A DNA stretch of 64,000 nucleotides, taken from the NCBI GenBank assembly GCA_002255905.1, contig NKIN01000003.1:409925-473924 (forward strand), in the 5' to 3' direction. The notes under the pieces were generated by a model. That model did not search any database, had not been told where the DNA came from, and saw nothing but the letters and a program-made list of their open reading frames with translations. The stretch comes from Burkholderiales bacterium PBB1 (GTDB lineage Bacteria; Pseudomonadota; Gammaproteobacteria; Burkholderiales; Burkholderiaceae_C). Position 1 is the first letter of the stretch. Every line of letters begins with the position of its first letter. Position numbers and translations under genes: made by a program. Below are positions 3,965-30,758 of the stretch, one piece after another.

Positions 3965-6844
3965 TCAGGCCACGCGGCGGACTTCGCCGTCACCGTAGAG
4001 GTTGCTGGTGCAGCGGCCGCAGATCGTCGGATGGGCAGCGTCTTGGCCCACGTCGTCACGGTAGTGCCAGCAGCGCTCGCACTTCGGTGCTTTCGATGGC
4101 ACCACGCTGACCGCCAACTCGGGGCCAGCGTTCAAATGCGCCTCAGAGGTGATCGTGACGAACTTCAACCCGTCGGCCAGTGACACCAGCAGCGCATGAT
4201 CATCGGCACCCGCAGTGATCGCAATCGAAGCCTGCAGTGACGAGCCGAGCTGACCCGCGGCACGCACGGCTTCGATCTGCTTGTTGGCGAACTCGCGGAT
4301 CTCGCGGATGCGCGACCACTTTGCCAGCAGTGCGTCATCGGCCCAGGCCGCGGTGTCGCTGTAGGTCTCGATGAAGATCGACGACGACCGGCCCGGCGCG
4401 AAGATCGGCCAGGCCTCTTCGGCGGTGAAGCTGAGGAACGGCGCCATCCAGCGCAGCATCGCGTTCGTGATGTGCCAGAGCGCGGTCTGCGCACTGCGAC
4501 GTGCCAGGCTCTTCGGTGCCGTGGTGTACAGACGATCCTTCAGCACGTCGAGGTAGAACGCGCCGAGGTCCTCGCTGCAATAGACCTGCAGCTTGGCCAC
4601 CACCGGGTGGAACTCATACACCTCGTAGTGCGCCAGCACCTCGGCCTGGAACTGCGCCGCGCGGGCCAGGGCGTAGCGGTCGATCTCCAGCAGCTCCCCA
4701 AGCGGAACCGCATCCTTCGACACATCGAAGTCGCTGGTGTTTGCGAGCAGGAAGCGCAGCGTGTTGCGGATGCGCCTGTAGCCATCGACCACGCGCGCGA
4801 GGATCTTGTCGTCGATGTTCAGGTCGCCCGAGTAGTCGGTGCTGGCCACCCACAGCCGCACGATCTCGGCGCCCAGCTTGTCGCTGACCGACTGCGGTGC
4901 CACCACGTTGCCCAGCGACTTGCTCATCTTGCGGCCCTGGCCATCGGTGGCGAAGCCGTGCGTCAGCAGGCCCTTGTAGGGCGCGTGGTCTTCGATCGCG
5001 CAGGCGATCAGCAGCGACGAATGGAACCAGCCGCGGTGCTGGTCGTGGCCTTCGAGGTAGAGGTCGGCCTCGGGGCCCTCGGCCTGACCCGCACCTTGGT
5101 GCGAGCCCCGCAGCACGTGGTTGAAGGTGCTGCCCGAGTCGAACCACACATCGAGGATGTCGTTGCTCTTGGTGTAGTGCGCAGCGTCGTCGCCCAGCCA
5201 GTCGCGCGGATCGAGTTGCGACCACGCTTCGACGCCGCCTTGCTCGACCAGCGTGGCCGCGCGGTCCATCAGCGCCAGCGTGTCCGGGTGCAGTTCGCCG
5301 CTGTCCTGGTGCAGGAAGAACGGCAGCGGCACGCCCCAGTTGCGCTGGCGGCTGATGCACCAGTCGGGCCGGTTGGCGATCATGTCGCGCAGCCGGGCCC
5401 GGCCGTTCTCGGGGTAGAACGTGGTCGCGTCGATGGCAGCCAGCGCGCTCTGGCGCAGCGTCTGCGGCGCCGGGTCGGTGGCGAACACGCCGGCGGTGTC
5501 GGTGGTCGCCTCGTCCATGCGCACGAACCACTGCGCGGCGGCGCGGTAGATCACCGGTGTCTTGTGTCGCCAGCAGTGCGGGTAGCTGTGCTGGAAGGTG
5601 GCGGTGGCGAGCAGGCGACCCGCATCACGGAGCGCATCGATGATGACGGCGCAGGCCTTCCAGATGTGCTGCCCGCCGAACAACGGCAGGCCTGCGTCGT
5701 AGACCCCGCTGCCGGTGACCGGGTTCAGGATGGCGTCGATCGCCATGCCGTGCGCGACGCAGGACCGGAAGTCCTCCACGCCGTAGGCCGGTGCCGCATG
5801 CACGAGGCCGGTGCCGTCGTCGGCAGTGGCGTAGTCGGCGAGGTAGACGGGGCTCAGACGGTCGTAGCCCGCATCGACATGGGCGAGCGGGTGGCGGAAG
5901 TGGATGCCGTCGAGCTTCTCGCCCAGCGCGGTGGCGATCACGCTGCCTTGCACACCGTAGCGCTTCAGACTGTCTTCGACACGCGCCGAGGCCAGCAGCA
6001 GCAGGCCGCGTTCGGTGTCAACCAGGCTGTACTCGAGCGCCGGGTTCAGGTTCAGCGCCTGGTTGGCAGGGATGGTCCACGCGGTGGTGGTCCAGATCAC
6101 GGCGAACGCGTCCTTGGCCAGCGACGGCAGCCCGAATGCTGCGGCCAGCCGATCCGGCTCGGCGCACAGGAAGGCCACGTCCAGCGATTGCGAGCTCTTG
6201 TCGGCGTATTCGATCTCGAACTCGGCCAGTGACGAGCCACAGTCGAAGCACCAGTAGACGGGCTTCAAGCCCCGGTAGACGTAGCCGCGCTCCATCACGC
6301 GCTTCAGCGTGCGGATCTCGCCGGCCTCGTTGCCGAAGTCCATCGTGCGGTAGGGGTGCGCCCAGTCGGCCAGCACGCCCAGGCGCTTGAAGTCGGCCAT
6401 CTGCTGCGCGATCTGCTCGGTCGCATACGCACGGCTCTTGGCCTGTACCTCGGCGCGCGGCAGCTTGCGGCCGTGGGTCTTCTCGATCTGGTTCTCGATC
6501 GGCAAGCCGTGGCAATCCCAGCCGGGGACGTAGGTCGCGTCCAGGCCTTTCAGCTGGCGCGCCTTGACGATCATGTCCTTCAACACCTTGTTGACCGCGT
6601 GGCCGATGTGGATCTGGCCATTGGCATACGGCGGGCCATCGTGCAGCACGAACTTCGGCGCGCCACAACGGGCCTCGCGCAAGCGCTGGTAGGTGCCGGC
6701 GTCCTCCCACTGCTTGACCCAGGCTGGTTCACGCTTGGGCAGGTCGCCGCGCATCGGGAACGGCGTGTCCGGCAGGTTCAGCGTGGCACGCAGGCCCGAG
6801 GTGTCGGCACCCGGGGCGTTGGCAGAGGACTTTTCGGTGGACAT
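3965..6844 (-). CDS. ileS: Isoleucyl-tRNA synthetase
   Basis: This 959-residue class I aminoacyl-tRNA synthetase charges tRNA-Ile in the cytoplasm. It shows the HIGH-type motif [12 protein letters not shown] (71-82), the large CP1 editing domain, the KMSKS loop [10 protein letters not shown] near residue 636, the anticodon-binding domain, and a C-terminal zinc finger (CERCW...CGRC, about 921-946). Length and domain order match bacterial IleS of the E. coli type. It is the first gene of ileS-lspA. Unlike many proteobacteria, no ribF gene lies directly upstream, only a 361-bp non-coding stretch. No T-box leader is visible, as expected outside Firmicutes. Confidence 0.98.
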
Positions 6845-27574: not shown

Positions 27575-27871
27575 ATGTTGTCGACGATCACCACCGAACA
27601 GCTGCTGGCCGCTCGCATCGATGAGCTGCGCCACTGCACCTGGAACGACAGCCGCCACATCTGCCAGCAGATCGAGGAAGACGCCCGCGGCAAGACGTGG
27701 CTGCTGCTCGATGAACACACCTACGCCACCATCTACGACGGCAAGGCGGGGCCTGCGGTGTTGTCGTTCTTCCACGACGAGGAGGCGAGCCTGGTGTTCA
27801 GCGATCACGCCGAGGCGGTGCTCGACGGCTACGAGGTGCCTGTCGACGCGCTGCGCGACGTGGTGGGCTGA
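27575..27871 (+). CDS. Small hypothetical protein with strong ribosome-binding site
   Basis: The 98-residue protein is not recognised. It is acidic (multiple D/E runs such as QQIEEDARG and FFHDEEASLVFSDHAEAV), with no signal peptide or membrane segment. Predicted structure alternates helix and short strands, with one C-terminal VPVDALRDVVG helix. AGGAGGAGA directly before the ATG at 27575 is close to the ideal Shine-Dalgarno, so it is probably well translated. It stands alone, converging with the hemoglobin gene. Confidence 0.6.
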   Translation: MLSTITTEQLLAARIDELRHCTWNDSRHICQQIEEDARGKTWLLLDEHTYATIYDGKAGPAVLSFFHDEEASLVFSDHAEAVLDGYEVPVDALRDVVG

Positions 27872-27927: not shown

Positions 27928-28452
27928 TCAGGGGGTGTTGACGATGTCGCGGTGCATCGGCGCGAGCTGCGCCAGCAGCCGGTTCTGCGTGCGGTAGCCG
28001 ACGCCCTGTGCGTCCAGCGACTGCTGCAGCACCTCGACGGTGGCATTGAAGGTGGCCTTGTTGATGTCCATGGCGCTGTGCACCTTGCGCATGTCGTGCT
28101 TGGCCTGTTTGCACGGTCCGCCCGACACCTCGCAGAACTGGATCACCAGTCGCTCCTGGTACTGCTTGGCGTCGATGTCTCGAAAGTAGGGGCCGAGCTG
28201 CGGGTTGGCCAGCAGTCGATGGTGAAATTCGGCGGCGATCTTCACCAACCCATCGTGTCCACCGAGCGCCTGGTACAGCGAGTCATCGGCTGGCACCACG
28301 GGGATGTAGGTGTCCACGATCGCAGGCGGGCGCTGCGGCGCATCGGCGGCGCTCGCGGCCCCGCAGGCTGCCAGTCCGTACATCACCGTCGCAAGCAGTC
28401 TCTTGCCCGCCAGCGCCTTCAACGCAGCCGCGCACTTCGATGCAGGTGTCAT
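27928..28452 (-). CDS. Lipoprotein group 1 truncated hemoglobin
   Basis: The 174-residue protein has a lipoprotein signal ending in the lipobox LAAC (27-30), so it should be lipid-anchored outside the cytoplasm. The rest is a truncated globin (about 57-172). It has LYQALGGHDGLVKIAAEF (helices A-B), PYF with the CD1 phenylalanine (F90), FCEVSGGPC, and the proximal histidine H125 in KVHSAMDI. At the B10 position, where trHbN has tyrosine, there is histidine (EFHH, H77). GGGGAGA precedes the ATG at 28452; a start ten codons upstream would weaken the signal. It is co-oriented with the DUF3034 gene, 26 bp apart. Oxygen, NO or peroxide chemistry is possible. Confidence 0.87.
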   Translation of the reverse strand: MTPASKCAAALKALAGKRLLATVMYGLAACGAASAADAPQRPPAIVDTYIPVVPADDSLYQALGGHDGLVKIAAEFHHRLLANPQLGPYFRDIDAKQYQERLVIQFCEVSGGPCKQAKHDMRKVHSAMDINKATFNATVEVLQQSLDAQGVGYRTQNRLLAQLAPMHRDIVNTP

Positions 28453-28478
28453 GTCATCTCCCCCGGTGTTCAGTCGAT

Positions 28479-29456
28479 TCAATAGGACAGCTGTGCCGAC
28501 ATGTACGCCCCGCTCTGGCGCTTGGGCGTCAGCGCTGGCACGATGTGGCCGAGGTCGACATAGGCCAGCGTCAGCGAGAAGTTCTTGCAGGGTGTCCAGG
28601 CGATGAAGGCGTCCTTCCAGTCGTCCTCGTGCAGGCCATTGCCGAACGCCACGCGGTTCAGGTTGTCAGGCTTCATGCGGTATTCGATGCCGATCGCCAG
28701 GTCCTTGCGCAGGGCCAGCGCGAGCGACATTTCAGCTTGCATGCGGTAGTTGTCCTGTCGGCTGCTGCCGAAGCCGAGCAGCCCGTTCTGGTTGGCACGT
28801 GTGGCACGCAGCGTGGTGTTGACCAGCACGCTCTGCGCGAGGAACAGCTTGGTGGCGCTGGCGTAGAAATCGGTCCCGCGCGTGTGCGCGCCGAGCGAGC
28901 GCAGCACCGGCTTGAAGCGGCCCGAGTCCAGGTCCTTGTACTCGATGCCCAGGGCGATTTGCGGCATGAGGTTGTCGCTGTCGAGCACCGCATCGCCAGC
29001 CACGCGCAGCTTCAGGCCCACGATGGTTTGCCGCAGCTTCAGGCCGGGAAAGCCCAGTGTTGCGATCGATTGACCGGTGTCGAACTCCTGGCGCGCCAGC
29101 GATGCCTCGAGCCGGTCGCCCCAGCCCACGGCCACACCGTAGACGTTGAGGGCATAGTCTTGCACGACGGTGCGTGTGAAGAAGGCGCTGGTGCCGATGC
29201 CGCCGTCGGTGGCGTAGCCACCAGTCACGGCCCATGGTGTCAGGCCGCCTCCGGCTGCGCCGTCGATGCTGCTGACACCCGAGGTCAGCAGCAGCTTGCC
29301 TTGGCGGCCCGGCACCGGTTGCGGTGGTTGCGGGACTGACGCAGCGGGTTCGGCGGTCCTGGCGCCCGCGTCAGGGACGGGCTGAGCAAGCACTGCTGCA
29401 CTGTGCAGCAGCGCGACCAACGACGGGACAAGGGCAAGATACGTCGATCTGACCAT
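28479..29456 (-). CDS. DUF3034 outer-membrane protein
   Basis: The 325-residue protein has a Sec signal (ending VLAQ, about 25), a proline/alanine linker, and a DUF3034 domain beginning GKLLLTSGVSSIDGAAGGGL. Alternating polar and aromatic strands follow to a terminal Tyr (SAQLSY), the pattern of an outer-membrane beta-barrel. The family is confined mostly to betaproteobacteria and has no proven role. The hemoglobin lipoprotein follows on the same transcript, suggesting that this barrel and the hemoglobin work together at the envelope, which is an inference. No TonB box is visible. Confidence 0.88.
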   Translation of the reverse strand: MVRSTYLALVPSLVALLHSAAVLAQPVPDAGARTAEPAASVPQPPQPVPGRQGKLLLTSGVSSIDGAAGGGLTPWAVTGGYATDGGIGTSAFFTRTVVQDYALNVYGVAVGWGDRLEASLARQEFDTGQSIATLGFPGLKLRQTIVGLKLRVAGDAVLDSDNLMPQIALGIEYKDLDSGRFKPVLRSLGAHTRGTDFYASATKLFLAQSVLVNTTLRATRANQNGLLGFGSSRQDNYRMQAEMSLALALRKDLAIGIEYRMKPDNLNRVAFGNGLHEDDWKDAFIAWTPCKNFSLTLAYVDLGHIVPALTPKRQSGAYMSAQLSY

Positions 29457-29546: not shown

Positions 29547-30758
29547 TCAAACCGTGCCGTCGTTTGAAGCGCTGAAGAAAGGCAGATCGACCTGCCTTTT
29601 GTGTGCGATGGGCGCAGGGGTCGGCACCGACAAGAGGGCAACGCTGGGCACCAGGCCTGTCGCGCGCACGCCGATCAGCCGCAGCCGCCGAGACAGGTCC
29701 ACGCGCTTCAGGCAGGAGCCCGCGGCCCGACGGATGGCCCGCGCATCGGCAATCGGCGTGGGCAGCGTCACGTCGCGCGACACCCGTTTGAAGTCGTCGA
29801 AGCGCAGTTTGATGCCGAGCGTCTGCGCAGCGTAGCCCTTGCGTTGCAGATCACTCGCCAGCCGCTCGCACAGCCGGGTGAACAGCCCGGACAGCGTGTT
29901 GCGGTCGTGCACTGCGTGCAGGTCGCGCTCGAAGGTGGTCTCGCGGCTGATGGATTTCGGCTCGCTGTGGGTGACGAGGTCACGCTCGTCACGGCCGTGT
30001 GCGGCCGCGTGCAGCCAGGCGCCGTAGCTGCGCCCGAAGTGCGCGATCAGCCATGGCGGATCTGCCGCAGCCACGTCGCCGATGGTGTGCAGGCCGACGC
30101 CCGCCAGCTTCTCGGCCGCCTTCGGCCCGATGCCGTTGACCTTTCGCGCGGCCAGCGGCCAGATGCGCGTGGTGAGATCGGCCTCGGTGAGCAACGTGAG
30201 CCCATCGGGTTTGTCGAGTTCGGAGCCGATCTTGGCCAGCAGCTTGTTCGGTGCCACCGCGATCGAGCAGCGCAGGCCCGTGGCGTCGTACACCGCATCC
30301 TTCAGTGCACGCGCTGCCGATGCGCCGGCATCCTGCTGGGCACCCGGCACCTCGCTGAGGTCGATGTAGATCTCGTCGATGCCACGGTCTTCGATCTGCG
30401 GGGCGATGCGTTGCACCGCCTCCTTGAAACGGCGCGAATAGAGTCGGTACTCATCGAAGTCGACTGGCAGCAGCACGGCGTCGGGTGCGAGCCGCGCGGC
30501 CTTCATCAGGCCCATCGCCGAATGCACACCGAGGGCGCGGGCTTCGTAGGTGCAGGTGGTGACGACGCCGCGGCCGACATAGTGGCGCAGCGTGGCATAG
30601 CGGCGGGTGCCATCGGGCTGCAGGGCGGGCTGCCGATCCCGCCCGCCGCCGATCACCACCGCGTGCCCGCGCAGATCGGGATAGCGCAGCAGTTCGACCG
30701 ACGCGTAGAAGGCGTCCATGTCGAGGTGGGCGATGAGGCGACGTGGCGCAGCCGGCAT
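29547..30758 (-). CDS. dinB: DNA polymerase IV (Y family)
   Basis: This 403-residue translesion polymerase has the catalytic IAHLDMDAFYASVELLRYP (about 9-27), GIDEIYIDLSEV with the second metal carboxylates, SIAVAPNKLLAKIGSELDKPDG, the helix-hairpin-helix VNGIGPKAAEKLAGVG and the little-finger domain. The C-terminus carries a sliding-clamp-binding motif QVDLPFF (389-395). Length is slightly greater than E. coli DinB (351). The clamp motif codons also form an 8-bp hairpin in DNA. It is monocistronic; no SOS box was identified upstream. Confidence 0.96.
   Translation of the reverse strand: MPAAPRRLIAHLDMDAFYASVELLRYPDLRGHAVVIGGGRDRQPALQPDGTRRYATLRHYVGRGVVTTCTYEARALGVHSAMGLMKAARLAPDAVLLPVDFDEYRLYSRRFKEAVQRIAPQIEDRGIDEIYIDLSEVPGAQQDAGASAARALKDAVYDATGLRCSIAVAPNKLLAKIGSELDKPDGLTLLTEADLTTRIWPLAARKVNGIGPKAAEKLAGVGLHTIGDVAAADPPWLIAHFGRSYGAWLHAAAHGRDERDLVTHSEPKSISRETTFERDLHAVHDRNTLSGLFTRLCERLASDLQRKGYAAQTLGIKLRFDDFKRVSRDVTLPTPIADARAIRRAAGSCLKRVDLSRRLRLIGVRATGLVPSVALLSVPTPAPIAHKRQVDLPFFSASNDGTV
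29578..29599. repeat. 8-bp inverted repeat within the dinB 3' end
   Basis: AAAGGCAG (29578-29585) and CTGCCTTT (29592-29599) form a perfect stem with a 6-nt loop, exactly over the codons for the clamp-binding motif. On the minus strand the stem is followed by CTTC-type pyrimidines, so it may partly act as an end-of-message signal. Confidence 0.45.

Follow-up and report, generated by a model that had tools for sequence, protein, structure and literature searches.

What might a truncated hemoglobin with an export signal do beside a putative outer-membrane barrel? This question is raised by two neighboring genes in the 64,000-nucleotide stretch of Burkholderiales bacterium PBB1 DNA analyzed here (the window), both on the reverse strand. 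The first (positions 28479 to 29456) encodes a DUF3034 protein of 325 amino acids including a signal peptide, which matches Pfam PF11231 with 323 bits against a cut-off of 25, and the second (27928 to 28452, ATG at 28452) encodes a globin of 174 amino acids. As originally predicted, the globin gene follows after 26 bp; this spacer (28453 to 28478) carries a Shine-Dalgarno sequence, namely, a good GGGGGAG just 5' of the globin ATG, and both genes are probably read as one transcript. The gene dinB (29547 to 30758, reverse strand), assigned to DNA polymerase IV by its IMS domains, lies 90 bp upstream of the DUF3034 gene, and this gene order recurs in several close relatives (L122, L123, L126, L136, and L142). 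Between the globin gene and a Zn-peptidase gene is an ORF of 98 amino acids (27575 to 27868, forward strand) that has no Pfam or NCBIfam match.

The pair is not peculiar to the window. (i) In an order-level sample of 250 genomes, 34 of which contained DUF3034, we examined 30 loci, including that of the window, and a globin gene adjoined DUF3034 at 28 of them; the two genes diverge in some lineages, whereas in others the globin gene follows DUF3034 on the same strand. The exceptions were one genome (G038) in which the globin is present and unlinked to DUF3034 and one genus (g43), in which five genomes have a divergent DUF3034 and lack such a globin. (ii) In a sample of 398 Pseudomonadota genomes, of which 39 contained DUF3034, a same-strand globin gene lay immediately downstream of DUF3034 at all 28 new loci. 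(iii) The pairing was repeated in 77 of 80 named loci, a set gathered with the DUF3034 alignment and therefore biased toward close relatives; named carriers include Roseateles, Piscinibacter, Hydrogenophaga, Acidovorax, Polaromonas, Rhodoferax, Massilia, Lysobacter, and Rhodanobacter. Because the adjacency recurs at these frequencies, it is not due to chance, and the pairing proposed in the original prediction stands. When a profile built from 56 globins was used to search the phylum-level genomes, the scores split cleanly, with 41 genomes at 121 bits or more and the next match at 91 bits. Globins above this gap were found in 39 of the 39 genomes with DUF3034 vs 2 of the 359 others (Fisher P = 5e-52, a value that ignores relatedness). 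The latter two (G557 and G398) were the only ones among the 398 genomes with the globin and no DUF3034; a DUF3034 match beside the G398 globin was rejected as an antisense ORF artifact.

Several further arrangements were observed. The globins of G557 and G398 (L213 and L214) have the Cys pair described below and are exported, with lipoprotein-like N termini. Two genomes (G152 and G209) contain two DUF3034-globin pairs apiece, and Curvibacter lanceolatus has two diverged pairs in one species (L180 and L189). Genomes of the family f79 (e.g., G304, at 5908 to 6750 of L218), which are small-genome Pseudomonadota, have tandem truncated globin genes, the second of which encodes a hydrophobic N terminus.

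The window globin is of the group 1 type, as had been claimed. It matches Pfam Bac_globin (PF01152; E = 6.5e-12, 46.1 bits against a cut-off of 21), and its AlphaFold2 model (pLDDT 93.5) has the group 1 truncated hemoglobin fold, as seen from its match to 8tls_A (Z 19.9, 1.5 Å over 116 residues). A gapless phmmer alignment with Mycobacterium tuberculosis HbN places F76 on PheB9 (F32) and H77 (28222 to 28224) on TyrB10 (Y33), which agrees with the assignment of H77 to B10 in the original prediction. TyrB10 and GlnE11 are central to oxygen binding by HbN; the window globin has H77 and L102 in their place. We then surveyed 133 DUF3034-linked globins, among which a species may have been counted in more than one sample. 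The proximal heme ligand HisF8 (H125 in the window globin, 28078 to 28080) and PheCD1 (F90, 28183 to 28185) were invariant (133/133), which argues for retained heme binding. Tyr was found at B10 in none of the 133, so that the claim of an altered B10 holds across the relatives. The position was occupied by Val (58), Met (29), Leu (25), Ile (13), and Ala (3), with Phe, Lys, His, and Arg once each and one X. His was thus private to the window genome (1/133); the closest relative (L122) has Arg and another locus (L135) Lys, and we discarded the idea that this His is the decisive functional feature. E11 was always apolar (Leu, Ile, Phe, or Val), and E14, which is Phe in HbN, was Gln in 117 globins and His in 10. 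As judged from these alignments, TyrB10 was lost across the family, whose apolar B10/E7/E11 pocket accompanies the retained HisF8 and PheCD1, and the polar E14 may, according to the ungapped alignment, be the main distal polar group. Two Cys residues, C107 (E16; 28132 to 28134) and C114 (28111 to 28113) in the window globin, were kept in 132 of the 133 and would form a disulfide in a protein that is presumably heme loaded. The globin tree has many weak forks and did not prove a single clade for the DUF3034-linked globins. Compared with the group 1 hemoglobins HbN and those of Paramecium caudatum and Shewanella benthica, the window-type globins share the 2/2 fold (Z 18 to 20), HisF8, and PheCD1 and are of similar length, but they are exported, lack TyrB10 and GlnE11, and have the two conserved Cys residues, Gln or sometimes His at E14, and the linkage to DUF3034.

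Export of the globin from the cytoplasm is well supported by the N-terminal sequences. Signal sequences, called by inspection and a simple heuristic rather than by SignalP, occur throughout the DUF3034-linked family, so that the cytoplasmic location expected for HbN-like group 1 globins was not found. By the same heuristic, betaproteobacterial members mostly have signal peptidase I sites and gammaproteobacterial members mostly lipoboxes such as LSAC. In the window globin, comparison with the N termini of relatives assigns residues 1 to 35 to the signal sequence (28348 to 28452). The export signal and the letters LAAC (residues 27 to 30, 28363 to 28374) of the original prediction are there, but lipid anchoring does not extend to the betaproteobacterial homologues in general. 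A signal peptidase I site, ASA/AD (residues 33 to 37), follows LAAC five residues further on, so that the window globin is at most a putative lipoprotein. The globin of the nearest relative has LALC, which is not a lipobox, together with the signal peptidase I-type sequence CGATPA/DE.

The DUF3034 protein is predicted to be an outer-membrane beta-barrel on the basis of its signal peptide, closed amphipathic barrel, and porin-like structural matches, which is consistent with the claim of an exported globin beside such a barrel. Its AlphaFold2 model (pLDDT 87) is a 12-strand barrel in which a segment of about 37 residues, which may be a plug, precedes the first long strand. The model resembles FapF (Z 19.7), KdgM (18.2), and the COG4313 channel (4rl8; 17.9), and the 12-strand barrel is shared with these and with the porin NanC, but sequence identity is only 7 to 14%; a sequence search of solved structures gave only marginal, short matches (Ika8/Ika4, E = 0.012). 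The shared barrel fold does not specify the function of DUF3034. We know of no globin partner of the COG4313 channel, KdgM/NanC, or FapF.

Regulation provides an indirect indication of function. One recurrent set of neighbors comprises genes for an ECF sigma factor, an RskA- or ChrR-like anti-sigma factor (mostly the former, only sometimes the latter), Ferritin_2, and DUF3455. At the sigma-linked loci, TGAATCC-N16-CGTA was common to the regions upstream of DUF3034, and the motif was present in 47 of 86 regions upstream of DUF3034 vs 0.2 in shuffled sequences. In 1.72 Mb of DUF3034 loci, TG(A/C)ATCC-N15-17-CGTA had 130 sites vs 1 for the reversed pattern, of which 51 preceded DUF3034 (in 111 pooled loci), 22 Ferritin_2, and 17 the ECF sigma gene itself; sites ahead of Ferritin_2/DUF4439 and sigma genes were seen in loci from L033 to L201. 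These data suggest an ECF regulon in Burkholderiales, of which we found no description, that comprises the DUF3034-globin pair, a ferritin-like gene, and the ECF sigma gene. The ECF11 consensus TGATCC-N16-CGTA marks oxidative-stress regulons of Pseudomonas syringae and Shewanella oneidensis, and in the latter an ECF11-type RpoE2 operon includes the periplasmic peroxidase gene pgpD and the ferrochelatase gene hemH2 (PMC5507510, PMC4336711). The likeness to ECF11 and to the RpoE2-ChrR singlet-oxygen regulons is one of promoter only: the ATCC-N16-CGTA core is shared, but DUF3034 loci have TGAATCC or TGCATCC rather than TGATCC (a Piscinibacter locus, L136, has the exact TGATCC-N16-CGTA before DUF3034), the anti-sigma factor is usually RskA-like, and the sites precede DUF3034-globin and Ferritin_2. 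No match to the motif was found upstream of DUF3034 in the window, and 26 of 28 phylum-level loci lack it (2/28 have it); as far as these upstream regions indicate, oxidative-stress control is therefore a lineage trait and not universal. Elsewhere in the window genome (contig C15, about 320 kb; L211), not linked to the DUF3034-globin pair, ECF sigma and RskA genes adjoin a DUF3455 gene and resemble the regulators found next to such pairs in other genomes; the sigma factor is 55% identical to one DUF3034-linked sigma factor. This locus also lacks a motif match, and ECF control of the window copy was rejected.

The best explanation, to which we assign a probability of about 35%, is a co-transcribed gene pair for an envelope heme protein and a channel that would handle oxidants. 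The DUF3034 protein would form the channel in the outer membrane. The globin, Sec exported and probably stiffened by its disulfide, would bind heme through HisF8, with the apolar distal pocket in place of the TyrB10/GlnE11 oxygen clamp, and would reside in the periplasm or, in gammaproteobacteria, be lipid anchored. It would use its heme to scavenge reactive small molecules or hydroperoxides or to act on them as a peroxidase. The barrel, which may contact it physically, would let substrate or product cross the outer membrane or would keep the globin at that membrane. Control of the module in many Burkholderiales would lie with an ECF sigma factor that acts through an oxidative-stress-like promoter; the window copy, now behind dinB, seems to have escaped this control. 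Antioxidant chemistry would be the best-supported guess, from the promoter in relatives and a precedent in Bacillus subtilis, in which the cell-surface group II truncated globin YjbI removes protein hydroperoxides in a manner dependent on Tyr63 near the heme (PMC9536834). YjbI thus also works outside the cytoplasm with a demonstrated antioxidant role, but it belongs to another group, and its need for Tyr63 counts against the antioxidant reading for globins without a distal Tyr at B10, as does the missing promoter at the window and most phylum-level loci. To our knowledge, YjbI has no barrel partner. Truncated globin domains outside the cytoplasm also occur in lPHCtX of cable bacteria, a proposed terminal oxidase, but these are fused to periplasmic multiheme cytochromes, and no link to DUF3034 is made in that report (PMC11976967). 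A literature search, mostly of papers open without subscription, returned no comparable truncated hemoglobin that is periplasmic or a lipoprotein and no description of the pair, with DUF3034 named in only two papers, once in each, in line with the original statement that the pair has no described role.

An alternative that we consider unlikely is an envelope gas or redox sensor, in which the globin would bind NO, CO, or O2 without stabilization and signal through the barrel or a neighboring signaling protein. An apolar distal pocket suits the sensing of fast-exchanging ligands, and signaling genes do recur beside the pair, both the ECF sigma/anti-sigma genes and, in a second set of neighbors seen in one group of lineages (at L036, L037, L042, L049, L053, and L063), a gene for a dCache_3-HAMP-GGDEF-EAL protein together with one for a secreted protein weakly similar to cupredoxin/CarboxypepD_reg. 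Which signaling neighbors occur, however, depends on the lineage, and none flanks the window pair, which itself has no transmitter domain; pairs that have the promoter look like targets of the ECF system rather than its input. Handling of heme or porphyrin, with the globin taking up an excess and the barrel expelling or importing it so that the photosensitizer load falls, appears more doubtful still. Globins normally keep their heme tightly, no TonB-type receptor or heme ABC transporter was recognized among the recurrent neighbors, and the barrel is small, with 12 strands and possibly a plug. In favor are the position of an outer-membrane channel next to a heme-binding fold and the presence of hemH2 with pgpD in the S. 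oneidensis operon (PMC4336711).

The original prediction also considered NO handling, and an exported version of trHbN acting as a periplasmic NO dioxygenase or scavenger would fit the group 1 fold, for which the nearest proteins are HbN and the group 1 globin of S. benthica. We regard it as improbable, however, given the family-wide absence of TyrB10 and GlnE11 and the distribution of nitrite reductases: strong cytochrome cd1 matches (E below 1e-90) were found in 5 of 39 carriers vs 46 of 359 noncarriers, and copper nitrite reductase exceeded the cut-off in 3 of 39 vs 52 of 359, so that neither enzyme is commoner in carriers in this comparison, which is uncorrected for phylogeny. Neither is encoded in the window genome, and a link to denitrification was rejected. 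Equally improbable is that the globin chiefly supports the structure or assembly of the barrel, with heme chemistry secondary, since HisF8 and PheCD1 are invariant and each gene occurs without the other (the divergent DUF3034 of one genus, the globin of two genomes), even though a normally scoring DUF3034 almost never occurs in a genome without such a globin and the two Cys residues suggest a rigid periplasmic protein.

Among these readings we favor that of an envelope heme protein and channel that would handle oxidants, for which the ECF promoter in relatives gives indirect support. A fuller version, offered tentatively, is that of a new outer-membrane heme module: a globin facing the periplasm, its distal pocket purely apolar, would gate or feed the channel and clear oxidants or oxidized molecules from the envelope, as an ECF output in Burkholderiales. 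DUF3034 would gain a first functional handle, as it is seemingly found almost only with a heme protein, and the truncated hemoglobins, mostly discussed as intracellular O2/NO proteins, would gain an exported family without the oxygen clamp. The Burkholderiales promoter predicts what turns the module on, and the module would thus be testable with one knockout and one reporter.
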